The notes below the pieces were generated by a model. It worked only from the letters and a program-made list of their open reading frames with translations. It had not been told where the DNA came from and did not search any database. DNA of 33,647 bases from positions 1 to 33,647 of the forward strand of contig DYJD01000050.1 of the NCBI GenBank assembly GCA_020723325.1, given 5' to 3'. A program made the translations under genes and the position numbers. This DNA is from Desulfosudis oleivorans (GTDB taxonomy: Bacteria > Desulfobacterota > Desulfobacteria > Desulfobacterales > SURF-7). How positions within the stretch are numbered: position 1 is the first letter of the stretch; every line of letters begins with the position of its first letter. Below, piece after piece: positions 6,802-25,933 of this stretch.

Positions 6802-7443
6802 TTATTTTTTTCTGTGGTTTTCCAGATCGGCGTAGGCTGCCACGTAGGAGAATTTAAGGGTTTCCTTGACCATGCGGACATATTCCTCCCGGTTCAGGTT
6901 GAGCATGGGCATGAAAAAACTCTGGCCGGAGACGAAATTGTGCATGGTATTCATGATGGTGAGCACTTTCATCTTGGCTTCGGACGTGACATTGCGCTTG
7001 TCCTTGGCCAGTCCCATGGAATAGGCGATCTCCGAGATGAATTCCGGCACACGCATATCCAGGCTGGTTTTGCTCCTGGTCTTGGTGAAATAGCGGAAAA
7101 TGGTCATATTGGAAATCTGCGGGTGTTCGAACAAATAGTCCATCATCTCATCCAGGGCGATCTCCAACCGTTCGGTCAAGGGCCGCCCCTTGATGTTCTT
7201 TTCCACATCCATCAGTTTCTGGCGCAGGCCTTCGTTGATATCCAGCACCACCGCTTCATATAAATCGGTTTTTTCACCCCAGTGGTAGTACAAAGTGGAA
7301 ATATCAATGCCCACGTATTTGGCGATCATGCGCGTGGTGGTGCCGTGAAAGCCGTATTCGCCGAACAATTTCCGGGCAGCCGAAAGAATTTTACCTTTCA
7401 TGGATTTGGGATTCTGCCTGGCTTTTTCAAGCGGCGTGGCCAT
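6802..7443 (-). CDS. TetR/AcrR family transcriptional regulator
   Basis: 213 residues. The N-terminal helix-turn-helix (about 17-62) has KILSAARKLFGEYGFHGTTT, then IAKYVGIDISTLYYHWGEK, the usual TetR recognition helix and YYHWxxK tail. The C-terminal half is a helical ligand/dimer domain with no recognisable subfamily signature. It is the last gene of the catabolic run and its start overlaps the end of the metallophosphoesterase gene by 17 nt; AAGGAG stands 6 nt before its ATG. Regulators of this type in fatty-acid gene clusters usually repress and respond to acyl-CoAs, so it is a good candidate controller of the cluster (inference). Confidence 0.9.
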   Translation of the reverse strand: MATPLEKARQNPKSMKGKILSAARKLFGEYGFHGTTTRMIAKYVGIDISTLYYHWGEKTDLYEAVVLDINEGLRQKLMDVEKNIKGRPLTERLEIALDEMMDYLFEHPQISNMTIFRYFTKTRSKTSLDMRVPEFISEIAYSMGLAKDKRNVTSEAKMKVLTIMNTMHNFVSGQSFFMPMLNLNREEYVRMVKETLKFSYVAAYADLENHRKK

Positions 7444-8177: not shown

Positions 8178-10031
8178 TCATCCGCCAAAGGCAACTTCCG
8201 GAATATCCACAACCGCCTTGCTGCCGGCCTGGATGGCATCCATCCTGCCGTTGGTAACCGGCAGAATGGCCTGGATGAAATATTCCGCGGATTTGATCTG
8301 GCCTTCATAAAAGGCCGCGTTTTTGTTTTTCTGGATCTTGTCCAGGCGTTCCGCACCCTGGGCGTCGCCCACCAGCTTGTCCAGGGCCGGTCTGGCCACC
8401 GTCGCCCGCCACAAAAGCATCCAGGCCATGACCACATCCCCCATGACTTCCAGGAAGGGCGAAGCAAAGGAAAAAGCCACCTTGAAGTCGGCGCTCATGG
8501 CGGTCTTGCCCATGTACATGGCCACTTCGCCCAGACGATTGAGACTCTTTTCCAGCTCGCCGGCCACTTCAGCCAGGCCCGGCGTGACTTTGGCCTTGGC
8601 GATGATCTTCTGCACTTCCCCCATGAACTGCATGAAAACCATGCCTTTTTTCATACCCATCTTGCGGCCCAAAAGATCCATGGCCTGGATGCCGTTGGTG
8701 CCCTCATAGATGGAATTGATTTTGGAATCGCGCATGAGGCGTTCCACCGGATAGTCGGCGGTATAGCCGTAGCCGCCGTAAACCTGCATGGCCAGCACCG
8801 TGGCTTCAAACCCGCGGTCCGTGCAATAGGACTTGATGATGGGCGTGAGCAGCTCGATCAGATCATTGCAAGCGGTTTTTTCGGCCTCATCCGTGGTGCA
8901 GGCCACTTTGTCGAACAGATAGGCGGTATAATAAACCAGGCTGCGCATGCCTTCCATATGGGATTTCATCCAGAGCAGCATCCGGCGCACATCCGGATGG
9001 CGGATGATGTTCACGGATGCGGCGTCCTTGTTGAACATGTCCCCCAGGTCCCGGCCCTGGATCCGCTCCCGGGCATAATTGACGGCATACAGATAAGCGC
9101 AGGAGGCATTGAACAGACCCAGGGCGCCCACCCCCAGCCTGGCTTCGTTCATCATGTGGAACATGACATGCATGCCTTTGTTCTCTTCGCCCAGGAGTAC
9201 GCCCCGGCATTTGCCCTTGCCGCCGAAGGTGAGCTGGCAGGTGGGGCTGGCATGCAGACCCAGTTTTTCCTCAATACTCGTGCAAACCACATCATTGGGC
9301 TCAGCCAGGCTGCCGTCGTCGTTCACCCAGATTTTGGGTACGATGAAAAGGGAAATGCCCTTGGTGCCTTTGGGGGCGCCTTCAATGCGCGCCAGCACCG
9401 GATGAATGATGTTTTCCGTCAGGTTGTGCTCCCCGCAGGTGATGAAAATCTTGTTGCCGGAAATGGAATAGGTGCCGTCGGCGTTTTTCACGGCCGCAGT
9501 GGTCAGGTTGCCCACGTCCGAGCCGGCCTCGGGTTCGGTGAGCACCATGGTGCCGCCCCATTCGCCGGAGTACATTCTGCGCATGTAAAGATCTTTCTGC
9601 TTTTCCGTGCCGAAAACCTCGATCATCTTGGCAGCCCCATGGGTGGCAAAGCCGAAGGCCGAAAAAGAAAAATCCGCGCCCACGATATATTCCGCCGAAG
9701 CCTGGGCCACCAGATGGGGCAGGCCCTGGCCCCCGATCTCCGGATCTTCCGTCATGGCGATCCATTCCCCTTCCCGGAGCAGATCATAGGGCCGGTGAAA
9801 ACATTCCGGCACGGTCACCTTGTTGTTTTCAAAAATAAGCCCGACCCGGTCGCCCTCCTCATTCACCGGCAGAATTTCCTTGATGGCGAAATTGCGCGCC
9901 TCGGTGACGATCATGTCGAACATCTTGCGGTTCATGTCCTTATAACGGGCGAATTTGGTCAGGTTTTCCCCTTCCAACTGCTCGTACATCACAAAGTCTA
10001 CATCCCGTCGATCAGCGATTTGTTGTGCCAT
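8178..10031 (-). CDS. Acyl-CoA dehydrogenase, long (about 600 aa) DmdC-like class
   Basis: 617 residues, well above the usual 380. After the N-terminal helical part come TEPEAGSD (165-172, flavin/substrate loop), the beta domain with GNKIFITCGEHN, and the C-terminal flavin domain with QVYGGYGYTADYPVERL. The catalytic glutamate is present as E443 in IYEGTNGIQ, the medium/short-chain position. A further 160-residue helical C-terminal extension is typical of the 3-methylmercaptopropionyl-CoA dehydrogenase (DmdC)/FadE-like class with an Acyl-CoA_dh_C domain. It forms a 2-enoyl-CoA using FAD and probably passes electrons to ETF. GAGGAG precedes the ATG. Substrate within the pathway is unknown. Confidence 0.92.
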   Translation of the reverse strand: MAQQIADRRDVDFVMYEQLEGENLTKFARYKDMNRKMFDMIVTEARNFAIKEILPVNEEGDRVGLIFENNKVTVPECFHRPYDLLREGEWIAMTEDPEIGGQGLPHLVAQASAEYIVGADFSFSAFGFATHGAAKMIEVFGTEKQKDLYMRRMYSGEWGGTMVLTEPEAGSDVGNLTTAAVKNADGTYSISGNKIFITCGEHNLTENIIHPVLARIEGAPKGTKGISLFIVPKIWVNDDGSLAEPNDVVCTSIEEKLGLHASPTCQLTFGGKGKCRGVLLGEENKGMHVMFHMMNEARLGVGALGLFNASCAYLYAVNYARERIQGRDLGDMFNKDAASVNIIRHPDVRRMLLWMKSHMEGMRSLVYYTAYLFDKVACTTDEAEKTACNDLIELLTPIIKSYCTDRGFEATVLAMQVYGGYGYTADYPVERLMRDSKINSIYEGTNGIQAMDLLGRKMGMKKGMVFMQFMGEVQKIIAKAKVTPGLAEVAGELEKSLNRLGEVAMYMGKTAMSADFKVAFSFASPFLEVMGDVVMAWMLLWRATVARPALDKLVGDAQGAERLDKIQKNKNAAFYEGQIKSAEYFIQAILPVTNGRMDAIQAGSKAVVDIPEVAFGG

Positions 10032-10643: not shown

Positions 10644-11807
10644 TTAAATTACTTTCTTTTGAGTAAGTGTTTCAATTTCCACCGGGGTATAGCCGAATTC
10701 GGTTAAAATTTTGCGCGTGCTCCGGCCGAATTGGATCGGCGGGGTGCGCAGACTGCCAGGGGTTTCGCTCAGTTTGACCGGCACGCCGATGGCGGTGGTT
10801 TTAGCGCCGTTACCGGCGTCGATTTCAAGGAACATCTCCCGGCTGCGCAAATGGGGGTCCTGCATGGCCTCATCCAGGTGCTTCACCGGGCCGTAGCAGA
10901 TATCCAGTTCGCCGAAGGTTTGCTCCCATTCCGCCAGGGTCTTGCTTTTAAAGGTCTTGCGCATGCAGGCGATGATCTCCTGGCGGCGCTTGTCGTCGTA
11001 CTGCAGCGGAATATATTCCGGCACGCCCAACTGGTTGCAGAGCACCTGCCAGAAGCGCAGCTCCACGGCGCCGATGGAGATGGCGCGGCCATCGGCGGTT
11101 TCATAGGTGTTGTAACAGGCATAACGGTGGGAAAGCATGGTATCGGCGCGTTGGGGGACCTGGCCGGTGAGCTGCTGAAAGAACAGCGGCACGGACAGCA
11201 GGGCCGCCATGCCGTCGGTCATGGAGATGTCGATGTACTGGCCCCTACCCGTGCGCTGCCGGGCATACAAGGCCAGCAAAATGCCGATGGCGGCATTCAT
11301 GCCGCCGCCGGCAATATCGGCAAGCTGGACCCCGGGGATCGCCGGCGGCCGGTCGGCCTCACCCATCAGGTCCAGCACGCCGGCCACGCTGAGGTAGTTG
11401 GCGTCATGGCCGGCCCGGTCCCGGTAGGGGCCGGTCTGGCCATAGCCGGTGATGGAGCAGTATATTATGCCGGGATTGATGCGTCGCACGGCTTTATAAT
11501 CCACCCCCAGGCGCTCCACCACCCCCGGCCGGAAGCCCTCCAGCACCACATCAGCGTTTTTCACCAGCCGGAAAAAAATTTCCTTGCCCTCCTGGGTTTT
11601 TAAATCCAGGGAAATGTGCTCCTTGTTGCGGTTCACGGTTCCCAGGAAGAGTCCTTCGGCCTGGTAGCGTTTGTCTTCAATGGCGATCACCCGGGCCCCG
11701 TGATCGGCCAGAATCATGGAACAATAGGGTCCGGGCAGCAGGCGGGACAGATCAATTACGGTGATGCCGGCCAGGGCACCTTGGTTTTGTGATTGGTTTT
11801 CCAGCAT
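10644..11807 (-). CDS. 2-methylacyl-CoA racemase (CaiB/BaiF family)
   Basis: A class III CoA-transferase-fold protein of 387 residues. The open frame extends 10 codons further to a TTG, but AGAGGA stands close before the ATG at 11807, so I start there. H134 in AGHDANYL, D164 in QLADIAGGG and E249 in GAVE keep the spacing of the H126/D156/E241 catalytic residues known for Mycobacterium MCR (30 and 115 residues apart), which favours racemase over CoA-transferase. The reaction is epimerisation of (2R)- and (2S)-2-methylacyl-CoA, needed because acyl-CoA dehydrogenases accept only one epimer. Its place among a ligase, dehydrogenases and MFE-2-like proteins supports a methyl-branched substrate. A CoA-transferase role is not excluded. 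Confidence 0.83.
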   Translation of the reverse strand: MLENQSQNQGALAGITVIDLSRLLPGPYCSMILADHGARVIAIEDKRYQAEGLFLGTVNRNKEHISLDLKTQEGKEIFFRLVKNADVVLEGFRPGVVERLGVDYKAVRRINPGIIYCSITGYGQTGPYRDRAGHDANYLSVAGVLDLMGEADRPPAIPGVQLADIAGGGMNAAIGILLALYARQRTGRGQYIDISMTDGMAALLSVPLFFQQLTGQVPQRADTMLSHRYACYNTYETADGRAISIGAVELRFWQVLCNQLGVPEYIPLQYDDKRRQEIIACMRKTFKSKTLAEWEQTFGELDICYGPVKHLDEAMQDPHLRSREMFLEIDAGNGAKTTAIGVPVKLSETPGSLRTPPIQFGRSTRKILTEFGYTPVEIETLTQKKVI

Positions 11808-11829
11808 GGTTTCCTCTTTTATTATCTTT

Positions 11830-12261
11830 CTAAACAAAATTGACCTGGGTCAGGTTTTCCTTTTGGCGCAACAGGTCGCGGATTTGGGCCTGCAGGCCTT
11901 TCTCTGCAATGGGTTCCACCACGGAAACCGGCTGGCCGTGGTCATTGTTGCGATGGCGCCATTGATGCACAAAGCCCTGCACCAGGGCATAGGCGCAGCC
12001 GGCCGGGCCGCAGCAGGAGCTGTCGGTGACGGCGCAGCCCACATGATACAGTATTTCGCGGCCTTCTAGTTTTAGAAGTTCTTCCTTTAAAACCACATAG
12101 CGGCCGCCGATGGAGCGGATTTCCTGGTTCAGGGGCTGGTGGGCATAGTCCACCAAGGGCTGCGCTTGTGGACATAGTGGACGGAATGGACTTGGTGGAC
12201 GGCATGGACCACTGCTGTTTTCATTCCGCGTTCCGCGTTCCGAGTTCCGCGTTCGGCTCAT
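11830..12261 (-). CDS. Small cysteine-containing hypothetical protein, start uncertain
   Basis: I do not recognise a named family. The C-terminal 100 residues look protein-like: SIGGRYVVLKEELLKLEGR, then a DSSCCGPAGCAYALVQG cluster with a CC and a further C, and a charged tail. The cysteines might bind metal or be redox-active (speculative). The ATG at 12261 overlaps the ligase TGA as ATGA, but the first 35 or so residues from it are encoded by a 7-bp and a 9-bp repeat array, so the natural start may be the GTG at 12153, which has no clear ribosome binding site. It ends 22 nt before the racemase start and lies inside the gene run. Confidence 0.6.
   Translation of the reverse strand: MSRTRNSERGTRNENSSGPCRPPSPFRPLCPQAQPLVDYAHQPLNQEIRSIGGRYVVLKEELLKLEGREILYHVGCAVTDSSCCGPAGCAYALVQGFVHQWRHRNNDHGQPVSVVEPIAEKGLQAQIRDLLRQKENLTQVNFV
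12170..12213 (+). repeat. 9-bp GGAC tandem array
   Basis: Plus-strand units GGACATAGT, GGACGGAAT, GGACTTGGT, GGACGGCAT, then GGACCACT. Each begins GGAC and four of five end in T. It adjoins the 7-bp array at 12227-12254 and overlaps the putative N-terminus of the hypothetical gene. Confidence 0.75.
12227..12254 (-). repeat. 7-bp GAACGCG array after the ligase stop
   Basis: Minus-strand units GAACGCG, GAACTCG, GAACGCG, GAACGCG start 3 nt after the ligase TGA. The junction and first units match the array at 465-499, which follows an unrelated gene. Confidence 0.8.
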
Positions 12262-13955
12262 CGTAAGGCCTTTTTGTCCACTTTGCCCACGGCAGTCAAG
12301 GGGATTTGCTCCACAATCTCGACTTGCTTGGGCACTTTGTAGGGCGCCATGTTTTCGCGGCAAAAGGAGATGATCTCAGCCTCCACGGCTTTTGGGTCTT
12401 TGGCCTTGGCGCTGTTTTTCAGTTGAACCACGGCTTTCACGATTTCACTGCCCGGCCGGTTTTTATCCGGCAGGCCCACAATGGCGCAGAAATCCACGTC
12501 TGGCTGCTGATAAAGGGTTTCCTCCACTTCCCGGGAAAAGACCTTGTAGCCGCCCACGATGAGCATGTCCTTGGCCCGGTCCACGATATACACGAAACCG
12601 TCCTGGTCCATGCGGGCCACGTCGCCGGTATGCAGCCAGGTCGCACCTTCAAAGGTGCGCAAGGCATGGGCACTTTCCTCGGGCTTGTTATGGTAGCCTT
12701 TCATCACCTGGGGCCCCCGGGCGATGAGTTCGCCGGGTTCGCCCTTGGCCACTTCCCGGCTGCGGGTTTCCAGATCAATGATTTTAATGTCCGTGTTTTG
12801 CACCGGCACGCCCACGGAGCCGATCTTTTTCAGGCCCGCGTATGGGTTCATGGTCAGGAGCGGGCTGCTTTCGGTCATGCCGTAGACTTCCATGATCTTG
12901 CCCTTGCCCACCATTTTTTCAAAAACCTGGATCCCTTCCACGGAAAAAGGCGCGGCCCCCGAGGCGCAAACTTTCAGGCTGGAAAAATCGAGGGTCTTGA
13001 ACAAAGGATTGTCCAGCAACATCTGGTACAGGGTGGGCACATTGGCCATCACCGTGGGGCGATGGGCTTTGATCTCCTTGCAAAAATGAGTGGTGTTGCG
13101 GGGGTCCGGAATCAGACACTGGGTGTTGGCGGTGCTCATGGCCAGCATGCCAAAGGCCAATCCGGCCAGGTGGAAAAAGGGAAAAGCCGACAGCAGCACA
13201 TCCTGGCCGATTTCCCAGCCCACCCATTCCCGGGCGTGGGTGGTGTTGGCCACCAGATTGCGATGGGTCAGCTCCGCGCCCTTGGGCAGCCCGGTGGTGC
13301 CGCCGGTATACTGGATCAGGCAGGTGTCTTCCGGCGAGACAGAAGCGGCGCATGCATCCGTTGGTGTGTAGGATGACAAAATCTCCTGGAAACGCAGCAC
13401 CTCCTTGCCTGGCAAGGGCCTGACCAAGCCCACCGGAATCTTTTTCAATAACTTGCCCAGGACCCGTTTGGGCCAGGGCAGAAAGTCGGCCACATTGGGC
13501 ACCACCACATGTTTCAAGCCCGGAACCTTATCCGCTGCCTTGGTGAGCCGTTCTTCAAAAAGCTTGTCCAGAATCACCAGCACGCTCACACCGGCATCCT
13601 GCAACTGGTAGGCCAATTCCTTGGGGGTCAGGAGCGGTGAAATCCCGGTGACCGTGCACCCGGCCCGCAAGGCGCCGGTCAAGGCAATGGGATATTCGGG
13701 GATGTTGGGCAGGTTGATGCCCACCACCGTGCCCGGCCCATATCCATGGTTTTTTAAAAAGGCAAGGAAACTCCCGGATAATTTCCAGAGTTCCCCAAAG
13801 GAGATGGTCCGGCCCAAAAAATGCAAGGCCGCCCGCTCGGGCTTGGCGGTAATTCCTTCCACCAGCATGTCCGTGAAAGTGATATCCGGAATCTCCACCG
13901 TGGCCGACGTGCCCCTGTCATAATGCCTTAACCAAGGCTTGCTCCCCTGCTCCAT
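12258..13955 (-). CDS. Acyl-CoA synthetase (AMP-forming ligase)
   Basis: 565 residues of the ANL superfamily. The phosphate-binding loop YTGGTTGLPKG is at 216-226. Downstream are VYGMTESSP (adenine/acyl pocket), WLHTGDVARMDQDGF (ribose-binding aspartate), and the hinge region DRAKDMLIVGGYKVFSREVE. The catalytic lysine is in the C-terminal PLTAVGKVDKK. It converts a carboxylic acid, ATP and CoA to acyl-CoA, AMP and PPi. It resembles long-chain fatty-acid ligases (FadD type), but the chain length or a sterol/branched side chain cannot be told from motifs. It is the likely entry enzyme of the pathway. A GGAGGGGGAG precedes the ATG. Confidence 0.93.
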   Translation of the reverse strand: MEQGSKPWLRHYDRGTSATVEIPDITFTDMLVEGITAKPERAALHFLGRTISFGELWKLSGSFLAFLKNHGYGPGTVVGINLPNIPEYPIALTGALRAGCTVTGISPLLTPKELAYQLQDAGVSVLVILDKLFEERLTKAADKVPGLKHVVVPNVADFLPWPKRVLGKLLKKIPVGLVRPLPGKEVLRFQEILSSYTPTDACAASVSPEDTCLIQYTGGTTGLPKGAELTHRNLVANTTHAREWVGWEIGQDVLLSAFPFFHLAGLAFGMLAMSTANTQCLIPDPRNTTHFCKEIKAHRPTVMANVPTLYQMLLDNPLFKTLDFSSLKVCASGAAPFSVEGIQVFEKMVGKGKIMEVYGMTESSPLLTMNPYAGLKKIGSVGVPVQNTDIKIIDLETRSREVAKGEPGELIARGPQVMKGYHNKPEESAHALRTFEGATWLHTGDVARMDQDGFVYIVDRAKDMLIVGGYKVFSREVEETLYQQPDVDFCAIVGLPDKNRPGSEIVKAVVQLKNSAKAKDPKAVEAEIISFCRENMAPYKVPKQVEIVEQIPLTAVGKVDKKALR

Positions 13956-14036: not shown

Positions 14037-15179
14037 TCACATCCCCATGAACTTGGCCGCAATCCCCTTCATGATCTCATTGGTGCCGGCAAAAATGGAC
14101 ATGACCCGCACATCCCGTTTGGCCCGCACAATCGGGCAGTCTTCCAGGGTGCCGTATTCGCCCACGAGCTCCAGGGCCCGGTCGGCGACACGGTTCACCA
14201 TTTCCGTGGTCCAGTATTTGGCCATGGAGGTCTCCACCACGATGGTCTGGCCCTCGATATGATCCATCACCAGTTTTTCCATATAGGTGCGGCCCAGTTT
14301 CACTTCCGTCAGCATTTCCACCAGGGCGAACTGGACCGCCTGGGATTTGATCAGGGGTTTGCCGTTTTGCACGGCCGTGCGGCAGCGTTCCACGGTCCAT
14401 TCCACCACCAATTCCGCGGCCGGCACGGCCCCCAGCACGCAGGTCAGGCGTTCCTGCTGGAGTTTCTGCATGAGCATCATGAAGCCGCTGCCGTTTTCGC
14501 CCAGGCGGTTCTGCTTGGGGATACGGCAGTCGCTGAAAAACAGCTCGGCCGTGTCCTGGCTGTGCCAGCCCATTTTTTCCAGTTGCCGGCCTTTGTTGAA
14601 GCCGGGCGTGCCGGCCTCCACCAGATAAAGGGAGACCGCATGATGTTTGCTGGCAATACCCGGGTCCCGGGCCGCGATGATCAAGAGATCACAGTTGACG
14701 CCGTTGGAAATAAAGGTCTTGGAGCCGTTGATGACGATTTCATCCCCCTGTTCCACGGCTGTGGTCTTCATGCCGGCCACGTCGCTGCCGGCATCCGGCT
14801 CGGTCATGGCCACGGCGCTGATGATGTCGCCGTTAACGCAGCCGGGCAGGTATTTGCGCTTCTGCTCGGGAGTGCCGAAGGAATCCAGATAGGGCACCAC
14901 CACATCGCTGTGCAAAGAGGCGGCCAGGCCGGTGCAACAGGTGCGGGACATTTCCTCGGCCACGATCACGGCATAGCGAAAGTCGCCGCCGATGCCGCCG
15001 TATTCAGTGGAAATACTCGGGCACAGGAACCCGCCCCGGCCCATTTTCTGCCACACGCTTTTGGGCACAAGATGCTCTCTTTCCCACTGGTCCACATAAG
15101 GGCTGACTTCCCTTTCCAAAAAATCCCGCAGGCGTTTGCGAAATTCCTGCTGCTCGGCGCTATAGGTAATGATATTCAT
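14037..15179 (-). CDS. Acyl-CoA dehydrogenase, IVD/LCAD-type catalytic base
   Basis: 380 residues from the ATG at 15179, which has GGGGGA before it; the frame runs further upstream but into the preceding gene. Motifs: AMTEPDAGSD (124-133), NGSKTFISNG, and a C-terminal FAGTNEIMKG. The usual IYEGT glutamate is replaced by alanine, but E243 in LQQERL aligns with the helix-G catalytic glutamate of isovaleryl-CoA (E254) and long-chain acyl-CoA dehydrogenase. It should therefore be active, on a branched or long chain. It is a close paralogue of 16522-17664: same length, same motif positions, same 3' flanking repeat. Confidence 0.92.
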   Translation of the reverse strand: MNIITYSAEQQEFRKRLRDFLEREVSPYVDQWEREHLVPKSVWQKMGRGGFLCPSISTEYGGIGGDFRYAVIVAEEMSRTCCTGLAASLHSDVVVPYLDSFGTPEQKRKYLPGCVNGDIISAVAMTEPDAGSDVAGMKTTAVEQGDEIVINGSKTFISNGVNCDLLIIAARDPGIASKHHAVSLYLVEAGTPGFNKGRQLEKMGWHSQDTAELFFSDCRIPKQNRLGENGSGFMMLMQKLQQERLTCVLGAVPAAELVVEWTVERCRTAVQNGKPLIKSQAVQFALVEMLTEVKLGRTYMEKLVMDHIEGQTIVVETSMAKYWTTEMVNRVADRALELVGEYGTLEDCPIVRAKRDVRVMSIFAGTNEIMKGIAAKFMGM

Positions 15180-15195: not shown

Positions 15196-16341
15196 TTATT
15201 TGAGTTTTCCAATGACCAGGTCGGCGATCCGGTCCTTCTGGCTTTCCCTTGTTCCCAGACAGAGTTCAATAGTCTTGGCGTCCCGGTAATAGCGTTCCAC
15301 CTCCTGCTCGGTCATATAGCCGTAGCCGCCGAACAATTGAATGGCTTCGTCCGCCACTTCCACGGCCATGCGCGCCGCCGTCATTTTAGCCATGGCGCTC
15401 AAGGTGGGGTCTGCCTTGCCTTTGTCGAAATCCGCCGCGGCCCGGTAGGTAATCAGGCGCGCCAGTTCAATTTTGGTGGCCATGTCCGCGATCTTGTGCC
15501 GGGTGATCTGGAACTGGGCCAGTTTGCGCTCGAACTGCTCCCGCTGCTTGACATAGGCAAGGGCCCGGTCAAAGGCGCCGGCCGCAATGCCCACGGCCCG
15601 GGCCGCGGCCAGGATCTTGACTTCATCCAAAAAGGCCCGGGCCTGGGCCAGGCCTTGGCCCTCCTTGCCCACCAGATTGGTAAGGGGTACGCGCACATCG
15701 GCAAAAGTAATATCCGCCAGGGCCACGGAATTGAGGGCCAGTTTGTCCCCCAAATCGGCGACGGTGATCCCGGGCCGGTCCGGCTCCACCAGGATCAGAG
15801 CGACACCGCTGTTTTCAGCATGCTTTGCCTCGGTGCGGCAGAGAACGAGATAAAACCCGGCAGCCCCGCCGTTGGTCACGTAGCGTTTTTTGCCGTTGAT
15901 GATCCATTCATTGTCCGAACGGGTGGCCGTGGTGTCTAGAACGGTGAAGTCATCGCCCCGATCCGATTCCCCCAAGGCTATCCCGGCCAGCATCTTGCCG
16001 GCCGTGACCTGCTCCAAATACTGCTCTTTCATTTTTTTATCGCCGAAGCGGTGCAGGCATTCCGCGCCAAAGGCGGCAAGCACCACGGCACTGCCCATGG
16101 TGGAATCTTTGCGGCACAGGGCCTCGGCCACTAGGCAGGCATCCACCAGTCCCAAGCCGCCGCCACCGTATTCTTCGGCAAACTGCAAGCCGACAAAGCC
16201 CAGTTCCGCCGCCTTTTGCAGCAACTCGGCGGGATAGGATCGGCTCTGCTCCAATTCCACCGTGACTTCCTTGTCGAATTCCCCCTTGGCAAATTCCTGG
16301 GCCGCCTTTTGGATTTCTTTTTGTGATCTTGTCAGTTCCAC
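15196..16341 (-). CDS. Acyl-CoA dehydrogenase homologue lacking both canonical catalytic glutamates
   Basis: 381 residues with normal overall architecture (EEYGGGGLGLVDACLVAEAL, NGKKRYVTNG, LFGGYGYMTEQEVERYYRD). The C-terminal IYEGT position reads CLGT with L362, and the helix-G glutamate position of IVD/LCAD is V241 (LDEVKIL). The canonical TEPxAGSD loop reads GESDRGDD. It may be the non-catalytic partner in a heteromeric dehydrogenase, as known for mycobacterial alpha2beta2 FadE complexes in steroid side-chain degradation, or use a shifted base such as E240 or E359. The GTG start has AAGGGGGG 5 nt before it. It lies between the two paralogous active dehydrogenases, 16 nt upstream of one. 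Confidence 0.88.
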   Translation of the reverse strand: MELTRSQKEIQKAAQEFAKGEFDKEVTVELEQSRSYPAELLQKAAELGFVGLQFAEEYGGGGLGLVDACLVAEALCRKDSTMGSAVVLAAFGAECLHRFGDKKMKEQYLEQVTAGKMLAGIALGESDRGDDFTVLDTTATRSDNEWIINGKKRYVTNGGAAGFYLVLCRTEAKHAENSGVALILVEPDRPGITVADLGDKLALNSVALADITFADVRVPLTNLVGKEGQGLAQARAFLDEVKILAAARAVGIAAGAFDRALAYVKQREQFERKLAQFQITRHKIADMATKIELARLITYRAAADFDKGKADPTLSAMAKMTAARMAVEVADEAIQLFGGYGYMTEQEVERYYRDAKTIELCLGTRESQKDRIADLVIGKLK

Positions 16342-16480: not shown

Positions 16481-16528
16481 TTGATAGCATACCACCATTC
16501 CTAATTCCTAATTCGTAATTCCTAATTG
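16481..16528 (-). repeat. 48-bp repeat copy B with GAATTAG array
   Basis: Second copy of the 13983-14030 element (two mismatches). The TAG stop of the acyl-CoA dehydrogenase at 16522 falls inside the heptamer array, so the array reaches into the coding sequence. It also forms the right arm of the inverted pair with 16366-16390. Confidence 0.85.
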
Positions 16529-17664
16529 ATTTTCATTTTGGCAATAATGCCTTTCATGATTTCATTGGTCCCGGCAAAAATGGACATGACCCGCACATCC
16601 CGGAAAGTACGGACAATGGGGGTCTTTTCCAGGGCGCCGGCCTGGGAGAACAAATCCAAGGCCCGATCGGCAATACGCTTGGCCATTTCGCTGGTCCAGT
16701 ATTTGGCCATGGATGTTTCCACGATGATCCGGCTGCCGGCCATGTGCTCCACAATCAGTTTGTCAAGAAAAGTGCGGCCGATCTTGACTTCGGTGCTCAT
16801 CTCCACCAGGGCAAAGGCCAGGGCCTGGGAACGGTTCAACGGACCTTTGGGCCCCATGGTTTCCCGGCAGTAGCGCATGGCCTGTTCCAGAATGCCTTCC
16901 GCTGCCGCAACAGCCATGACCGCCACCACCAGCCGTTCCTGCTGGAGCTTTTCCATGAGCATGTAAAAGCCGGTGCCGGCTGCCCCCAGGCGGTTGCTTT
17001 TGGGGATGCGGCAATTGTTGAAAAAAAGCTCGGCCGTGTCCTGGCTGTGATAGCCCATCTTTTCCAGGCGCCGGCCTCTGGAAAAACCGGGGGTGCCGGC
17101 TTCCACCAGGTACAAGGACAGGGCCTGGTGGGCCTCGGCCGCCCGGGGGTCCTTGGCCGCCACCACCACCAGATCGCAGTTGATGCCGTTGGTGATAAAG
17201 GTCTTGGAGCCGTTCAGCACGATTTCCCCGCCGTCTTCCTCGGCCGTGGTCTGCATGGAGGCAAGATCACTACCGGCATTGGGCTCGGTCATGGCCACGG
17301 CCGTGATGATGTCGCCGCAGGCGCAGCCGGGCAGATATTTACGTTTCAATTCCTCGGTGGCATAGGACTCAAGATAGGGCACCACAATGTCGCTGTGCAA
17401 GGGTGTGGCCAGACCGCTGTGGTTGGTGCGGGCGATTTCCTCGATGACGATCACCGCATGCAAAAAATCTCCGCCGCCACCACCATATTCCTTGGGCAGG
17501 GCCGGGCAGATAAACCCGGCCCGGCCCATTTTTTGCCACACCGCCCTGGGAATAATGTGCTCCTTTTCCCACTGATCCACATGGGGCGTCACTTCTTCGG
17601 CCAGAAACTTGCGCAAGCGTGCCCGGAAACGATGATGATCTTCCGTATACGACAAGAGTTGCAT
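16522..17664 (-). CDS. Acyl-CoA dehydrogenase, IVD/LCAD-type, paralogue of 14037-15179
   Basis: 380 residues. Motifs occupy the same positions as in the paralogue: AMTEPNAGSD at 124-133, NGSKTFITNG, E243 in LQQERL as the probable helix-G catalytic base, and FAGTNEIMKG in place of the IYEGT loop. Both proteins share the opening pattern SYxxExxxFRxRLRxFL. FAD-dependent alpha,beta-dehydrogenation of a long or branched acyl-CoA is expected, with ETF as acceptor. AAGGAG precedes the ATG. It is separated from the thiolase gene by a 47-nt spacer almost wholly made of a 7-bp array. Confidence 0.92.
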   Translation of the reverse strand: MQLLSYTEDHHRFRARLRKFLAEEVTPHVDQWEKEHIIPRAVWQKMGRAGFICPALPKEYGGGGGDFLHAVIVIEEIARTNHSGLATPLHSDIVVPYLESYATEELKRKYLPGCACGDIITAVAMTEPNAGSDLASMQTTAEEDGGEIVLNGSKTFITNGINCDLVVVAAKDPRAAEAHQALSLYLVEAGTPGFSRGRRLEKMGYHSQDTAELFFNNCRIPKSNRLGAAGTGFYMLMEKLQQERLVVAVMAVAAAEGILEQAMRYCRETMGPKGPLNRSQALAFALVEMSTEVKIGRTFLDKLIVEHMAGSRIIVETSMAKYWTSEMAKRIADRALDLFSQAGALEKTPIVRTFRDVRVMSIFAGTNEIMKGIIAKMKIN

Positions 17665-17711: not shown

Positions 17712-18920
17712 CTAGGCTCCGTACTTCCCAATGATCGAGATGGCGCAAATATTCTGGAACGGAAACCCTCCCAAATTATGGGTCAGGCCGAATTTGGGAT
17801 TCTTCAACTGGCGTTTGTCGGCCCGGCCGTGGAGCTGCAGGTACATTTCATAGATCATGCGCAAGCCTGAAGCGCCGATGGGGTGGCCGAAACATTTCAG
17901 GCCGCCGTCTACCTGGCAGGGCACCTGGCCGTTCAGATCGTACATGCCGTTCAGGGCGTCTTTCCAGGCCTGGCCGCGCTCAGAAATATGCAGGTCCTCA
18001 TAGGTCACCAGCTCGGTGATGGAGAAGCAGTCGTGAACTTCCATCATGCTGATCTCCTTGCGCGGATCGGTGATGCCGGCTTCTTTATATGCCGCCAGGC
18101 TGCATTTGGAGGTGGTCATGAAATGATCGCCGTCCCATTCATTATAGGCCGCTTCCTCGCCGCTGCTCAGGGCGAGCTGCAAGGCCTTGACCGTAACAAA
18201 ATCCTTTTTGCCGAGTTGCTTGGCGATTTCGGGGGTGGTGACAATGGCGCAGGCCGAACCGTCGCTCACGCCGCAGCAGTCGAACAATCCCAGGGGGTGG
18301 GCGATGATGGGGGCTGCCAGCACTTGTTCCATGGTCACCGGCTTGCGCAGATGGGCCTTGGGGTTCAAGGAGCCGTTGGCATGACTCTTGACGGACACAT
18401 GGGCAATGGCCCGTTTCAGGTCCTTGTCCGATACCTTGTATTTGGCGGCATAGGCGCTGGCCAGTTGGGCAAAGGAACCCGGCGCCGATAGATTGGGCCA
18501 CCATTGCCAGGACAGGCTGCCGGCGCCCGAACCGGGGTTCGGCAAGCCGCCGTAGCCCGTGTCCTTCAATTTTTCCACGCCCTGGGCCAGACAGATGTCA
18601 TAGGCCCCGGAAGCCACGGCATAGCAGGCCCCCCGGAAGGCTTCGGTGCCGGTGGCGCAGTAGTTTTCCACCCGGGTAACCGGGATCATGGGCAGGCGCA
18701 GGGTCACGGCCAGGGGCATGCCGGTCTTGCCCACATTGACTTCATCCATGCAGGTGCCGAACCAGGCCGCGCCGATATCTTTCTTTTCAATGCCCGCATC
18801 CCCAAGCGCTTCTTCAAAAGCTTCCACCATCAATTCCTCGGCGCCCATGTCCCAGCGTTCGCCGAATTTGGTGCAGCCCATACCGATAATTGCAACCTTG
18901 TCTCTGATTCCTGTTGCCAT
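17712..18920 (-). CDS. SCPx-type thiolase (acetyl-CoA acyltransferase)
   Basis: 402 residues of the SCP2-thiolase branch. The nucleophilic cysteine is C88 in ENYCATGTEAF. The HDCF motif is at 296-299 and the second catalytic pair is C343/H346 in KCFGHPIGASG. All residues needed for CoA-dependent cleavage of a 3-ketoacyl-CoA are present, in contrast to the thiolase-fold domain of the next gene upstream. SCPx-type thiolases prefer 2-methyl-branched and sterol side-chain 3-ketoacyl-CoAs, which fits the racemase and MFE-2-like neighbours (inference). AGGAGG precedes the ATG. The gene starts 13 nt after the four-domain fusion gene and is surely co-transcribed. Confidence 0.92.
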   Translation of the reverse strand: MATGIRDKVAIIGMGCTKFGERWDMGAEELMVEAFEEALGDAGIEKKDIGAAWFGTCMDEVNVGKTGMPLAVTLRLPMIPVTRVENYCATGTEAFRGACYAVASGAYDICLAQGVEKLKDTGYGGLPNPGSGAGSLSWQWWPNLSAPGSFAQLASAYAAKYKVSDKDLKRAIAHVSVKSHANGSLNPKAHLRKPVTMEQVLAAPIIAHPLGLFDCCGVSDGSACAIVTTPEIAKQLGKKDFVTVKALQLALSSGEEAAYNEWDGDHFMTTSKCSLAAYKEAGITDPRKEISMMEVHDCFSITELVTYEDLHISERGQAWKDALNGMYDLNGQVPCQVDGGLKCFGHPIGASGLRMIYEMYLQLHGRADKRQLKNPKFGLTHNLGGFPFQNICAISIIGKYGA

Positions 18921-18932: not shown

Positions 18933-21668
18933 CTATCGATTCAGTTTGAACAGCTTTTGAATAAGCTGGGATTTCATGACATCGCCGTCAATGAGCAGTT
19001 TGCCGCTGGTAAAGGCTTTCATGGGATCCAGTTTGCCGGTCACCATCTGCACAAAGTCGTTGTCAGCCATCTTGATGGTGCAGGTGGCTTTGGCGGCCTT
19101 GCCGGTTTCCACCTTGCAGGCCCCGTCCTTTACCGTGATGATCCAGTCCCCGCCCTGGGGGCCGGAAATGGTGTATTGAAAGACCACATCCACGCCGGCG
19201 GCAGCGTCTTTTTGAAAAGCGCCGGGCATCTGCTCAAAAATCTGCCGGGGAGCCGGCTCACCGGAGGCGGCAGTCGGGGCCGCGCTGGCTGCTTTTGGAG
19301 CCGCCGGCGTCATCATATCGAACAAGGCCGCGTTCAGGTCCGCCATTTCCTTGGCCCCTTCCAGGCTGTTGATCTTGTCGATATTTTCATGGATCATCTC
19401 CGGGCTGGGCAGATGTGTGGCATCACCCAGTTGGACCGTGGGGCCGGTCATGACCGCGGCCCGGTTGTAATAACCCATGCCGGCGTTGAAAATCCGGCCG
19501 CTTTCCTGGCAGGCTTCGCTGCACAGATACATCACCATGGGCGCCACGTATTCGGGTTTCATTTTGGCAAAGACTTCCGGCGGCATGATGTCCTCGGTGA
19601 GGCGCGAAGCCGCCAATGGTGCCACGGTGTTGACCTTGATGTCGTATTTGGCCCCTTCCAGCTTCAGGGTGTTCATGAGGCCGATAAGGCCCATTTTGGC
19701 CGCCGAATAATTGGTCTGGCCGAAATTACCGTATAAACCGGCCGCCGAGGTGGTCATGATGATACGGCCGTAGCCCTGCTCCTTCATGGCGATGAAAGCC
19801 GGTTTGGTCACATGGAAGGCGCCGTTCAAATGCACATCCAGCACAACCTGCCAGTTTTCCGGATCCTGTTTCAGGAAGCTCTTGTCCCGCAAAATGCCGG
19901 CATTGTTGATGAGGATGTCCACCCGGCCGAAGGCTGCCAGGGCCGCCTTGATGATGTTCTCCCCGCCTTCGGGGGTGGCCACGTTGTCGTAATTGGCCAC
20001 GGCCTTGCCACCCAGGGCTTCGATTTCCGCCACCACCTTTTGGGCCGGGGTGGCCGAACCCGTGCCGGAGCCGTCCCGGGAACCGCCCAGGTCATTGACC
20101 ACCACCATGGCACCGCGTTTGGCCAGCTCCAGGGCGTATACCCGTCCCAGACCGCCGCCGGCGCCGGTGATCACCGCCACCCGGCCGTTGTAGTTGATCT
20201 TGTTCATCTGGGCCGCCGCGCCGGGCACCGGGGCCGCTTTCCAGAAATAATTGATGAACCCGCGCTCCTTGTCCTGCACGCGCTTACGGAAAACCATCTG
20301 CACCGGCAGCCCCACCTTGACTTCATCCATCTTGCAATCCGTGAAGTCGGCCATGAAGCGGCCGCCGCCCTGGAACTGGACCATGCCGTAGATATGGGGC
20401 GGGTCCACGGATACCGCCAAAAGATCGCCGGTAAAGGTCTTGACCGCGGCGGGCATGTCGGCGAATTCATAATCATCCTGGCTGCGGATGGCGCCGCAGT
20501 CCGGCTTGACGCAGATGTCCATTTTGGGGAACTGGGCCGTGCCGCATTTACGGCATTTGCCGCCCACCAGACCCAGGATCATCTTGCGTTTGCGCCACAG
20601 CACGGTCATGGCCGTCTGGGTGGGGGCCTCGGCGCGGATGCCCATCTCCGTGGGCAGAAGATCACGGAACTTCAGGAATTTGCTGTAGTTGTCCACGACT
20701 TCCTTGTTGGCCAGGGTGCCTTTGAGTCCGTCCCGGGCTCCCAGTTTGGTGATGGCCTCGGTGACCTTAAAGAGCATGGCGTTGCTGCCCTGGCCGAAAC
20801 CGGCCACCAGAATGCGCTGGCCGGGTTTGGCTTCCTGCAAGGCCGCGGTGAGCATCAAGAGGGCATGGGCCGTGCCGGTTTCGCCGCAGACTTCGTGCAG
20901 GTTGTCCATGACTTTTTCCGGCGTGGCGCCCAGCGTCTTGGCGATGTTTTTATGCTCGGCCTTGAAAAAACAGGGGAAAGCCAGCTTGTCCACATCTTTC
21001 ATAGTGAGATTGAGCTTTTTCAACAAGCCGTTGACCGCCTCTGGAATGATCTTGGAATAACCTTCATCCCGGGCCCAGCGTTCTTCCCAGACATAGTCGA
21101 ATTTTTTGTCAGCCCCCCGGTAGTGCTCCACAAAATCACAGGATACCGAATAGGACCCCAGGAATTCCGCGATCACGTCCTGGTTGCCCACGGTGACGGC
21201 AGCGGCGCCGTCGCCGTACCACATTTCGTAGAAATAGGCGGACTTGGTCTCACGCCGGTCGGCGGCCGCCACCAGGATATGGTTGCGCTCCCCGCTTTTC
21301 ACGGATTCCAGGGCCGTGAGCAGGGCCGTACTGCCGGCCTTTTGGGAAGAAGTAAAATCGGAAGTAACGATGTTCTCCCGCAGGTTCAAGGCCGTGGCCA
21401 CCACCCCGGCGTTCTGGCGGTCGGCGAACGGCATGGTGGTGGAGGCCATGTACAGGCCGTCCAGTCTGGTTTTATCCGTGCCTTTGAGGCAGTCGCGGCC
21501 GGCGGCCACCGCCATGGTGATGGAATCCTCGTCCCAGTTGCACATGGACCGTTCCCCCTGGGCCACCATCATGATGGCGGGCGCGAACCAGCCCATGCTT
21601 TGAAAAATGGACATGCGGCTCAAGCGTAAACGCGGAATATATGCGCCATAAGAAGTGATACCGATCAT
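18933..21668 (-). CDS. Four-domain fusion: thiolase-fold/HMG-CoA synthase-like, DUF35 OB-fold, SDR dehydrogenase, SCP2
   Basis: 911 residues from ATG 21668, with GGAGGAG upstream; the open frame beyond is encoded by a palindrome and is rejected. Residues 1-305 resemble archaeal HMG-CoA synthases (ITSYGAYIPR start), but the nucleophilic Cys position is Q109 (SSQKAGS). The His, Asn and Glu active-site positions also appear changed. Residues 355-480 form a zinc-ribbon/OB-fold DUF35 domain (C372, C375, C386, C391). Residues 490-770 are an SDR 3-hydroxyacyl-CoA dehydrogenase of the MFE-2 type (TGAGGGLG, TTSAAG, YSAAK). The last 105 residues are an SCP2 lipid-binding domain. The SDR-SCP2 half is a paralogue of that in 21782-23917. 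Possible roles are a DUF35-assisted aldolase/lyase, as in Ltp2-ChsH2, or a scaffold; unproven. Confidence 0.9.
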   Translation of the reverse strand: MIGITSYGAYIPRLRLSRMSIFQSMGWFAPAIMMVAQGERSMCNWDEDSITMAVAAGRDCLKGTDKTRLDGLYMASTTMPFADRQNAGVVATALNLRENIVTSDFTSSQKAGSTALLTALESVKSGERNHILVAAADRRETKSAYFYEMWYGDGAAAVTVGNQDVIAEFLGSYSVSCDFVEHYRGADKKFDYVWEERWARDEGYSKIIPEAVNGLLKKLNLTMKDVDKLAFPCFFKAEHKNIAKTLGATPEKVMDNLHEVCGETGTAHALLMLTAALQEAKPGQRILVAGFGQGSNAMLFKVTEAITKLGARDGLKGTLANKEVVDNYSKFLKFRDLLPTEMGIRAEAPTQTAMTVLWRKRKMILGLVGGKCRKCGTAQFPKMDICVKPDCGAIRSQDDYEFADMPAAVKTFTGDLLAVSVDPPHIYGMVQFQGGGRFMADFTDCKMDEVKVGLPVQMVFRKRVQDKERGFINYFWKAAPVPGAAAQMNKINYNGRVAVITGAGGGLGRVYALELAKRGAMVVVNDLGGSRDGSGTGSATPAQKVVAEIEALGGKAVANYDNVATPEGGENIIKAALAAFGRVDILINNAGILRDKSFLKQDPENWQVVLDVHLNGAFHVTKPAFIAMKEQGYGRIIMTTSAAGLYGNFGQTNYSAAKMGLIGLMNTLKLEGAKYDIKVNTVAPLAASRLTEDIMPPEVFAKMKPEYVAPMVMYLCSEACQESGRIFNAGMGYYNRAAVMTGPTVQLGDATHLPSPEMIHENIDKINSLEGAKEMADLNAALFDMMTPAAPKAASAAPTAASGEPAPRQIFEQMPGAFQKDAAAGVDVVFQYTISGPQGGDWIITVKDGACKVETGKAAKATCTIKMADNDFVQMVTGKLDPMKAFTSGKLLIDGDVMKSQLIQKLFKLNR

Positions 21669-21754: not shown

Positions 21755-21782
21755 GTAGGGGCGGATCGCGATCCGCCTCTAC
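21755..21782. repeat. Second GTAG-footed hairpin
   Basis: Arms GTAGGGGCGGATC and GATCCGCCTCTAC pair with one mismatch around a GC centre. It touches the stop codon of the hydratase-SDR-SCP2 gene. Together with the previous hairpin it could act as an mRNA processing or 3'-protecting structure (inference). Confidence 0.8.
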
Positions 21783-23917
21783 TACAGTTTAAATACCTTC
21801 TCGATAAGTTGCGACTTCATGATATCGCCTTCGATCAGCAGTTTGCCGGACGTATAGGCCTGCATGGGTTTCAGTTTGCCGTTCATCATGTCCAGGAAAT
21901 CGCTGTCTTTAATCTTCAGGGTGCAGCCCGGCTTTTCATGCTTGCCGGCCTTGACCTCGCAGGTGCCCTGCTTGATGGCGCAGCTCCAATCCCCGCCGCC
22001 GGCACCGGCAATGATATACTGGAACACCACATCCGCACTGCCGGCCTTGTCGGCCTGGAAGGCGCCGGGCATGGCCTCGAAAATCGCGGCCACGGAAGAA
22101 AAGCCGGCGGCCGCGCCACCCGCAACCGCGGCGGACCCGCCTGCATCTGCACCGGCCTGTGGCCCGGTCAGGGCCGTGAACACATCGCCCACCTGGTCGT
22201 TCAACTGGAAGTATGCCTTGGCGCCGGAAAGGCTGCTGATCTTGCCCAGGCTCTTTTGGATTTCCTCCACCTCAGGATACTCACCACCGCCCCGCACCAC
22301 CGCGCCGGGACCGGTCATGACCGCCACGCGGTTGTAAAAGCCCATGCCGGCATTGTAGATATTGCCGGTGACCTTGCATTTTTCCGAACAGAGATAGATG
22401 GTCATGGGTGCCACATATTCCGGTTTCATCTTTTCAAACAGATCCGGCGGCAGGATGTCCTCGGTCAGACGGGAGGCGGCCACCGGCGCAATGGTATTGA
22501 CCTTGATGTCGTATTTCTGGCCTTCCAGTTTCAGGGTGTTCATGAAGCCGGTGAGGGCCAGCTTGGCGGCCGAGTAGTTGGTCTGGCCGAAATTGCCGTA
22601 GAGACCGGCGGCTGAAGTGGTCATGACGATTCGGCCGTAATTGTTGTCCTTCATGGCGCTAAAGGCCGGCCGGGTCACGTTATAGGCACCGTTCAGATGC
22701 ACGTTCATCACCGCCTGCCAATTTTCCGGCTCCATTTTGGTAAAACTCTTGTCCCGCAGGATGCCCGCGTTGTTGATCAGGATATCCACCTTGCCAAAGG
22801 CGGTCAGGGCGGTCTTGACGATATTCTCGCCGCCTTCGGGGGTGGCCACATTGTCATAATTGGCCACGGCCGAGCCGCCTGCTTGTTTAATTTCCTGCAC
22901 AACCATGTCCGCGGCGGAAGAGGAACCTTTGCCAGAGCCGTCCCGGGCCCCGCCTAGATCATTCACCACCACCTTGGCCCCGCGTTTGGCCAGTTCCAAT
23001 GCATAGACCCGGCCGAGTCCGGCGCCGGCGCCGGTGATGATGGCCACCCGGCCGTCAAAACGGATTTCCTCCTTGGGAATGTCGCCGTATTCGAATTCAC
23101 CCATGTCGATGACCACATCATCGGTTTGGGCGTTCAGGACCCGCCAGACGGCCTTGCCCGGCGCGGTTTTCCAGATCAGAATCTTGATGGGTGTTCCGGG
23201 GTACAGGGTCCGTGAAAAACGGCAATACATGCGCCGGGCCTTTTCCGGCTCGCCGGGGATCAGGTTGTTCACCAGGGCGCGGCAAGAGTAGCCGTGGGTG
23301 CACAGGCCGTGCATGATGGGCATTTCAAACCCGGCCATTTTGGCAAATTCCGGGTCCGCATGCAGGGCAAAAAGATCGCCGGAAAGACGATACAAAAGGG
23401 GTTGGTTGCCGGCCGGGGCTTCCTCCACCAGAAAATCCGGCTGGCGATCCGGAAAAATAACTTCCTTTTTAGGGGCGTCCGGACCGCCGAAGCCGCCGTC
23501 CAGACGGGCAAAAATGCTCAGGATGCTGGTGAATAGCTTCTTGCCGTTGGAATGCCGGGTTTCGCTCTCACCCACCACCAGGGCGCCTTTTTTCTGCCCC
23601 TTATCATAATAATGGGTCAGCTTGCCCTCGGTGCTGAGAGTACCTTCGGTGGGGATGGGATTATGAAAAATTAGTTCCTGCTCGCCGTGCAAAATCCCGG
23701 CCAGATTTACCCCCGACTGGATACCGAACTGGGTGATAAAATCAAAAACCGAGGCAATCGAAAAGCTGGGAATGACTTTCAGGTTTTTCTCATAACAATA
23801 CTCCAGATTGGAAAAGCCGGCCCCCACGCCCAGGGCGTAAAGAACTACATCCTTCCAACTGTAGTCCTTGGAAATCGGGCCGATCTTTTTCCCCAATGCA
23901 TCCATGTTCAAGGCCAT
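21782..23917 (-). CDS. Multifunctional beta-oxidation protein: enoyl-CoA hydratase 2 - SDR - SCP2
   Basis: 711 residues. Residues 1-280 form a double-hotdog (R)-specific enoyl-CoA hydratase 2. The catalytic D181 and H186 in LSGDLFALHADP keep the D/H spacing of the peroxisomal MFE-2 hydratase, and the GFEMPIMHGLCTHG segment follows. Residues 285-555 are an SDR (R)-3-hydroxyacyl-CoA dehydrogenase (TGAGAGLGRVYALELAKRGA, VNDLGG, TTSAAG, YSAAK). An Ala/Gly linker (about 580-610) leads to a C-terminal SCP2 domain. It would hydrate a trans-2-enoyl-CoA and oxidise the product with NAD+. Peroxisomal MFE-2 has the order SDR-hydratase-SCP2, so here the first two modules are swapped. It is probably the first gene of the run; GGGAGGG precedes its ATG. 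Confidence 0.94.
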   Translation of the reverse strand: MALNMDALGKKIGPISKDYSWKDVVLYALGVGAGFSNLEYCYEKNLKVIPSFSIASVFDFITQFGIQSGVNLAGILHGEQELIFHNPIPTEGTLSTEGKLTHYYDKGQKKGALVVGESETRHSNGKKLFTSILSIFARLDGGFGGPDAPKKEVIFPDRQPDFLVEEAPAGNQPLLYRLSGDLFALHADPEFAKMAGFEMPIMHGLCTHGYSCRALVNNLIPGEPEKARRMYCRFSRTLYPGTPIKILIWKTAPGKAVWRVLNAQTDDVVIDMGEFEYGDIPKEEIRFDGRVAIITGAGAGLGRVYALELAKRGAKVVVNDLGGARDGSGKGSSSAADMVVQEIKQAGGSAVANYDNVATPEGGENIVKTALTAFGKVDILINNAGILRDKSFTKMEPENWQAVMNVHLNGAYNVTRPAFSAMKDNNYGRIVMTTSAAGLYGNFGQTNYSAAKLALTGFMNTLKLEGQKYDIKVNTIAPVAASRLTEDILPPDLFEKMKPEYVAPMTIYLCSEKCKVTGNIYNAGMGFYNRVAVMTGPGAVVRGGGEYPEVEEIQKSLGKISSLSGAKAYFQLNDQVGDVFTALTGPQAGADAGGSAAVAGGAAAGFSSVAAIFEAMPGAFQADKAGSADVVFQYIIAGAGGGDWSCAIKQGTCEVKAGKHEKPGCTLKIKDSDFLDMMNGKLKPMQAYTSGKLLIEGDIMKSQLIEKVFKL

Positions 23918-25896: not shown

Positions 25897-25915
25897 AGGT
25901 CCTCCTATTTTTATG

Positions 25916-25933
25916 TTTCGATATATATCGAAA
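25916..25933. promoter_or_regulatory. Perfect palindrome, likely ArsR-type operator
   Basis: TTTCGATATATATCGAAA is an 18-bp perfect palindrome. It overlaps the end of the -10 hexamer and the predicted start site of arsM, where a repressor would block transcription. A/T-rich palindromes of this kind are bound by ArsR/SmtB repressors. Confidence 0.65.

Follow-up and report, generated by a model that had tools for sequence, protein, structure and literature searches.

What is the role of a synthase-like domain that has lost its nucleophilic cysteine and stands at the head of a dehydrogenase? This question is raised by a gene on contig DYJD01000050.1 of the Desulfosudis oleivorans assembly GCA_020723325.1, of which the 33,647 nucleotides analysed here are called the window. 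The gene encodes one polypeptide in which a domain resembling hydroxymethylglutaryl-CoA synthase (HMGS) is followed by a DUF35 domain, a short-chain dehydrogenase/reductase (SDR) domain and an SCP2 lipid-binding domain, and a thiolase gene lies immediately downstream. We propose that the protein is probably both a scaffold, made of a pseudo-synthase and DUF35, for the neighbouring thiolase and a dehydrogenase of a coenzyme A (CoA)-linked beta-oxidation operon.

Domain order and distribution of the fused protein

An earlier note on this DNA, made from the sequence alone, had described four domains on one polypeptide. Pfam places them in just this order, with ACP_syn_III_C at residues 216-296, zf-ChsH2 at 367-393, OB_ChsH2_C at 420-461, adh_short at 496-684 and SCP2 at 820-908. 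The frame can start at ATG 21668, giving 911 residues, or at an upstream ATG at 21737, giving 934; M1 of the 911-residue form is kept in at least 90% of 99 aligned proteins, which favours ATG 21668. The protein does not reach the cut-offs of two HMG-CoA synthase families, scoring 203 of the 244 bits needed for NF003274 (the NCBIfam archaeal-type HMGS family; residues 1-338) and 134 of 353 for TIGR00748.

The 99 proteins were picked from the matches listed in a survey of the window's order (291 genomes). They comprise an SDR-bearing set of 62, that is the window protein and 61 fetched HMGS-DUF35-SDR frames, and a set of 37 shorter HMGS-DUF35 frames of about 490 residues; mean column identity across the alignment was 62%. 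Five more SDR-bearing loci, L013, L015, L024, L027 (which has two internal stops) and L029, stand outside the 62, their wider flanks not having been fetched. That 61 further frames are open across HMGS, DUF35 and SDR rules out a frameshift or chance fusion as the origin of the window's frame. SCP2 is found in the same frame in 50 of the 62; some of the other 12 are cut at contig ends, and seven are frames of 801-823 residues.

Residues 1-481 were matched in 132 of the 291 genomes of the order and in 115 of 297 genomes of the phylum, where the matching frames of seven genomes from beyond the order measure 912-926 residues, judged by length alone. At 12 loci with named records the relatives were 66-71% identical and came from Desulfobacterales and other 'Deltaproteobacteria' metagenome-assembled genomes. 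The fusion of a thiolase-fold domain to DUF35, which had seemed unusual, proved not to be so: frames of about 490 residues matching 1-481 turned up often in both the order and the phylum sample, and proteobacterial plasmids carry them as well. Sphingomonas and Variovorax plasmids carry the unfused order SDR, MaoC, HMGS-DUF35, thiolase. One Sphingomonas plasmid copy (L151:7779-9224) has lost three of the four DUF35 zinc cysteines and retains Gln109, discussed below, and the adjoining thiolase. At L091:8761-10593 (genome G172) the fused frame ends at 611 residues, within the SDR, with no adjoining thiolase; this is either a decaying copy or a sequencing error.

Predicted fold

A structure model of residues 1-481 reached a predicted local distance difference test score (pLDDT) of 93.3 and a predicted template modelling score (pTM) of 0.94. 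When it was compared with solved chains, among them archaeal HMGS as the earlier note had proposed, the best match was the HMGS-type subunit of the archaeal complex, 6esq_I (Z 48.3; 1.6 A over 334 residues), followed by 9skh_C (47.0), PhlA 5mg5_A (46.0) and MucA 9vbo_B (42.9); free-standing HMGS (MvaS) ranked after these subunits of three-part complexes, at Z 39.8. At the nucleophile site the sequences of the four chains have one Cys, two Gly and one Glu. The model thus predicts that the N-terminal domain belongs to the HMGS-like subunits of three-part complexes of a thiolase, a DUF35 protein and an HMGS-like protein. Two other hallmarks of such complexes are present, a Cys4 zinc ribbon in 99 of 99 proteins, with C372, C375, C386 and C391 invariant, and a linked thiolase with its catalytic residues in 92 of 99 loci.

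The full-length model (pTM 0.66) does not give a reliable domain arrangement; its top structure match was the dehydrogenase of rat MFE-2, 1gz6, with 49% identity. Together with catalytic N, S, Y and K sites that are intact in all 59 aligned copies of the fused protein, this upholds the assignment of the third domain as an MFE-2-type dehydrogenase.

Loss of the synthase catalytic sites

Gln109 aligns with Cys114 of the HMGS of M. thermolithotrophicus and Thr77 with its Glu82, while Pro232 and Glu263 occupy the HMGS His and Asn sites, which we take to be catalytic. The replacement of the nucleophile by Gln (codon CAA) and the apparent substitution of the three other sites had both been described earlier, correctly. 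Across the 99 proteins Cys never occurs at site 109. The SDR-bearing frames have Gln in 55, Ile in 4, Val in 1, Leu in 1 and Ala in 1, and Gln recurs in four of the five left-out loci; the shorter frames have Leu in 24, Ile in 4, Thr, Met and Gln in 2 each, and Ser, Ala and Val in 1 each. The family-wide conservation of Gln109 that the earlier note had suggested checking is therefore real among SDR-bearing frames and fails among their shorter relatives. At the His site all 62 SDR-bearing and 21 of 37 shorter frames have Pro, and no frame has His; the Asn site is Glu (52), Asp (9) or Gln (1) in the SDR-bearing set and one of eight kinds of residue in the shorter one, Asn in 7; at the Glu site 92 of the 99 proteins have Thr and none has Glu. 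Among the shorter frames, 53%, 56% and 89% of 345 columns are more conserved than sites 109, 232 and 263, respectively.

We also looked for a catalytic cysteine elsewhere in the domain, which would have spoken against a lost active site. Cys233 and Cys261 were candidates and were rejected, being kept in the SDR-bearing set (62/62 and 59/62) and not in the shorter relatives (21/37 and 6/37); in three plasmid relatives position 233 is Ile, Leu and Glu.

Linkage to an intact thiolase

The thiolase encoded next door had been judged a competent SCPx-type enzyme, and its Cys88, HDCF and GHP motifs are indeed all intact. Within 600 bases downstream there is a thiolase frame at 55 of 62 SDR-bearing and 37 of 37 shorter loci, and the nucleophilic Cys88 is kept in 92 of these 92; Cys88, HDC and GHP His346 are invariant where aligned, two rows lacking the C-terminal part. 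Of the seven loci without a downstream thiolase, five lie within 25 bases of a contig end and two, L091 and L103 of one genus, truly lack one. In the genome of L103 (G151) a PRK06157 thiolase sits 1.2 Mb away on the chromosome.

Seen from the thiolase, an HMGS-like match lies within 3 kb of 125 of the 142 listed PRK06157 thiolases above cut-off. Nine of the other 17 were read. In four, the stretch between the contig end and the thiolase holds an SDR-SCP2 or SCP2 tail, which may be that of a fused gene or of an MFE-2-like gene; in two, there is a DUF35 match (in one also an HMGS match) absent from the listed matches; L161 is cut within the thiolase, L154 is a displaced thiolase, and L158 is a true exception. 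Over 47 loci the Spearman distance correlation of HMGS-DUF35 was 0.71 with the thiolase, the highest of ten pairs, and 0.63 with MaoC, values of little weight, as they come without a null test.

Two SDR paralogues

A second SDR is encoded upstream, in an MFE-2-like MaoC-SDR-SCP2 protein, and its catalytic residues are intact too (59/59 aligned). On a quick tree of 30 loci the SDR copies of the two proteins interleave, with 13 label changes, at least three of them forced by starred branches, and with long-branch warnings. SDR pairs are slightly more alike within a genome than between genomes (median identity 0.80 vs 0.76), and their longest exact DNA match has a median of 24 vs 17, reaching 98 in L111 and 20 in the window. 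The SDR copies have thus likely evolved in concert, and the interleaving, taken with the greater likeness within genomes, suggests gene conversion between them.

A proposed scaffold and its alternatives

We propose that the N-terminal domain is a pseudo-synthase which, with the fused DUF35, would form a docking platform for the downstream thiolase, on the model of PhlA-PhlB with PhlC and of archaeal HMGS-DUF35 with acetoacetyl-CoA thiolase. The expectation of docking is an analogy with DUF35-mediated docking in PhlACB and in Sal-Shy and Ltp2-ChsH2. Hydration would be provided by the upstream MaoC-SDR-SCP2 protein; the fused SDR, as a (3R)-hydroxyacyl-CoA dehydrogenase, would then produce the 3-ketoacyl-CoA, its acyl chain bound by SCP2, for the docked thiolase to cleave with its own Cys88. 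The physical complex, a transfer of intermediates within it, these activities and any pairing of the SDR paralogues are inferred. An extended form of the proposal, possible but doubtful, is a DUF35-centred metabolon in which the fused SDR and its upstream paralogue would form a mixed oligomer, bringing hydratase, dehydrogenase and thiolase into one particle with the SCP2 domains as lipid-carrying arms.

Several observations weigh against a mere scaffold. Conservation of Gln109 in 55 of 62 SDR-bearing frames is not demanded of a pure spacer, and Gln109 is also present in two of the three plasmid relatives. Thr77 is well kept, only 17% of columns being more conserved, and Pro232 and Cys233 are invariant in the SDR-bearing set, as are 68 of 345 columns. 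The conservation at these sites indicates that some constraint remains near the old active site. On the side of the thiolase, L103 has the full fusion with neither an adjoining thiolase nor an MFE-2 gene. At L158:3227-6757 (genome G198) the thiolase comes straight after MaoC-SDR-SCP2 and HMGS-DUF35 is absent from the locus; the HMGS match in G198, a genome 80% complete, is marginal (E 7.6e-4). The thiolase there seems to work without HMGS-DUF35, possibly after a loop-out of the DNA separating the SDR copies, unless the genome is misassembled.

In the chain-length factor (KS-beta) of type II polyketide synthases, Gln stands in place of Cys. By the same token the pseudo-synthase could be the thiolase's partner in setting specificity or chain length, with Gln109 and the rest of its former pocket shaping a tunnel that both share. 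The frequency of Gln109 and of Thr at the Glu site is consistent with this, as are Phe146, Trp150, Pro232 and Cys233, which all 62 SDR-bearing frames share but the shorter relatives do not; residues 146-150 would line the pocket. In PpATase the sites of PhlA and PhlC lie next to each other in a common cavity (PMC6392133), and PhlA was proposed in 2010 as a chain-length regulator (PMC2954200). However, seven of the 62 have Ile, Val, Leu or Ala instead of Gln, and PpATase has PhlA and PhlC homodimers joined via PhlB, with no direct heterodimer of the ketosynthase-chain-length factor kind (PMC6392133). We regard this partner role as unlikely.

That the N-terminal half is a passive relic, the gene being in effect a second SDR-SCP2, agrees with the absence of HMGS-DUF35 from L158 and the shortened frame of L091, but the 62 SDR-bearing and 37 shorter open frames, their invariant zinc cysteines, the mean column identity and the linkage to a thiolase make it quite improbable.

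KSQ decarboxylases have Gln for Cys and retain the catalytic His residues. The earlier note had raised such a decarboxylase-like activity, in which Gln109 would mimic an acylated Cys and a malonyl- or methylmalonyl-type thioester would be decarboxylated. The exchange falls on the exact site, and the FabH C112Q structure 9ka5 is among the fold matches; however, every SDR-bearing frame has Pro at the His site and 61 of 62 have Glu or Asp at the Asn site, few of the shorter relatives carry the Gln (2/37), and the operon reads as catabolic, so that we consider this activity very improbable. Least probable of all is a retro-aldolase or other cleavage by a different nucleophile or base such as Cys233 or Cys261. 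Both are well kept among SDR-bearing frames and poorly among the shorter ones, the three plasmid relatives lack Cys233, and the adjoining thiolase has HDCF and not the YDHF/YDCY motif of Ltp2 and Sal (PMC12329534). As the catalytic sites are replaced and Gln is not kept in relatives, neither chemistry serves as the main explanation of the domain, and neither gains support from PhlACB, where the thiolase subunit performs the chemistry (PMC6392133, PMC12955522).

Operon and window

The genes around the fusion (Table 1) comprise a ligase, a CoA-transferase, four acyl-CoA dehydrogenases, MaoC, SDR and thiolase, an operon which from its gene content reads as catabolic and beta-oxidation-like; a catabolic, not a biosynthetic, role is thereby implied for the HMGS-like/DUF35 part. 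Recurrence was counted over the 62 SDR-bearing loci, window included, and within the fetched stretches only. An upstream MaoC-SDR-SCP2 gene accompanies 59 of 62, the contig ending at two of the other three, and a MaoC match was found in 1 of the 37 shorter-frame loci. Relatives of three acyl-CoA dehydrogenases and of the CoA-transferase occur in 28 to 36 loci; the fourth acyl-CoA dehydrogenase recurs in 10 and the ligase in 9. For a clue to the substrate we turned to a proteogenomics paper on D. multivorans (PMC5109826), in the examined portion of which the words 'hydroxymethylglutaryl' and 'sterol' do not appear.

Table 1. Coordinates of the fused gene, its parts and its neighbours in the window
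Feature	Position	Strand	Basis or remark
Four-domain gene, pseudo-HMGS/DUF35/SDR/SCP2	18933..21668	-	911 aa; frame analysis, Pfam, relatives
HMGS-like (KAS III fold) domain, residues 1-345, without Cys nucleophile	20634..21668	-	Pfam, NCBIfam, fold model
Codon CAA of Gln109, nucleophile site of HMGS/FabH	21342..21344	-	Alignment
DUF35 (rubredoxin-like zinc ribbon and OB fold), residues 346-481	20226..20633	-	zf-ChsH2, OB_ChsH2_C; 6esq_E match 357-477
Zinc-ribbon cysteines C372, C375, C386, C391	20496..20555	-	Invariant in 99 aligned proteins
SDR domain, residues 496-684, MFE-2-type (3R)-hydroxyacyl-CoA dehydrogenase	19617..20183	-	adh_short; 1gz6 match
SCP2 lipid-binding domain, residues 820-908	18945..19211	-	PF02036, 75.5 bits vs cut-off 21.3
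Thiolase (SCPx/PRK06157 type), 402 aa, proposed docking partner	17712..18920	-	NF004810 712 bits, cut-off 403
MFE-2-like gene MaoC-SDR-SCP2, 711 aa, upstream	21782..23917	-	Pfam; SDR-SCP2 part 64% identical to that of the fused protein
Acyl-CoA dehydrogenase	16522..17664	-	Pfam
Acyl-CoA dehydrogenase	15196..16341	-	Pfam
Acyl-CoA dehydrogenase	14037..15179	-	Start at internal ATG; mechanical frame begins 15269
AMP-forming acyl-CoA ligase	12258..13955	-	Pfam
Family III CoA-transferase (mechanical TTG start)	10644..11837	-	Pfam
Acyl-CoA dehydrogenase with PF12806 C-terminal domain	8178..10031	-	Pfam
TetR-type regulator	6802..7443	-	Relative in 48 of 62 SDR-bearing loci, window included (E up to 1e-20)

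Upstream of the operon are an amidohydrolase and a methyltransferase gene (26097-27725 and 25105-25944), of which no close relatives were found in the other fetched loci (1/62, the window itself, and 0/37), and at 29701-31696 the genes of a nitrite-reductase-type cytochrome c552 and a NapC/NirT-type cytochrome. On another contig of the same genome (C64), L138:8103-11123 (-) is a 1006-residue frame with an AMP-forming ligase, three SCP2 repeats and a DUF35-like tail; it adjoins two thiolase-like genes and a DUF35-MaoC-like gene. A second SCP2-DUF35 fusion of that genome is the 282-residue frame at L138:535-1383 (-), with SCP2 and a DUF35-like second half; all of these assignments but SCP2 were made by eye.

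Implications and comparison with known systems

The analysis adds the precise order of the four domains, how widely this order is spread and how well it is conserved in Desulfobacterota, and a Cys-less synthase part kept with an intact thiolase. Literature searches found no paper announcing this order; component fusions were mentioned in 2010, when DUF35 proteins were described as fused to thiolase-superfamily, SDR, SCP2 and hot-dog domains (PMC2954200). The fused protein would extend the thiolase/DUF35/HMGS-like architecture from biosynthesis (mevalonate, 2,4-diacetylphloroglucinol) to an apparently catabolic beta-oxidation, uniting scaffold, dehydrogenase and lipid holder in a single polypeptide. 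By implication, an annotation as HMG-CoA synthase or KAS III in such genomes may in some cases hide a pseudo-enzyme, and the natural Gln, Leu and Ile variants at the dead nucleophile site make the role of such a pseudo-subunit, that of PhlA included, testable.

The C-terminal half resembles MFE-2 (rat 1gz6, Candida 2et6) in its SDR, 49% identical to 1gz6 in the structure alignment, and in its SCP2 tail, whereas HMGS-DUF35 stands where MFE-2 has its hydratase. To our knowledge, the benzoylsuccinyl-CoA thiolase BbsA-BbsB has no HMGS-like domain and no fusion to SDR-SCP2. The bbs operon, which serves the beta-oxidation of benzylsuccinate, is otherwise similar in combining a DUF35 protein, BbsA (PMC12329534), and a thiolase with CoA-transferase, acyl-CoA dehydrogenase, hydratase and SDR steps (PMC10818641). 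In Ltp2-ChsH2 and Sal-Shy, a DUF35 domain fused to the enzyme of the preceding step, a hydratase, binds the thiolase-fold aldolase of the next, the DUF35 of Shy binding Sal (PMC11321319, PMC12329534); unlike the window proteins, these systems have no HMGS-like domain and their partners are aldolases.

The closest likenesses are to three-part complexes. The archaeal acetoacetyl-CoA thiolase/DUF35/HMG-CoA synthase complex (6ESQ) has the same three components, and gives both the best fold match and the DUF35 match (6esq_E), but its subunits are separate and its HMGS retains Cys114 and Glu82 (PMC6392133). PhlACB (PpATase/CsATase) shares a Cys-less HMGS-like PhlA, whose chains matched our model at Z 45.7-47.0, a DUF35 PhlB and a thiolase-superfamily PhlC with Cys88. 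In PpATase, PhlA and PhlC dimers are held together by PhlB, the key Cys and Glu are missing from PhlA, and only PhlC residues contact the bound product; PhlA and PhlB were described as 'not directly involved' in the transfer step and 'very likely' required for the complex (PMC6392133). The exchange C88S in Chromobacterium PhlC abolished activity (PMC12955522). PhlACB differs from the fused protein in its separate subunits, its biosynthetic C-acylation, the absence of SDR and SCP2, and the Gly that PhlA has where the fused protein has Gln.

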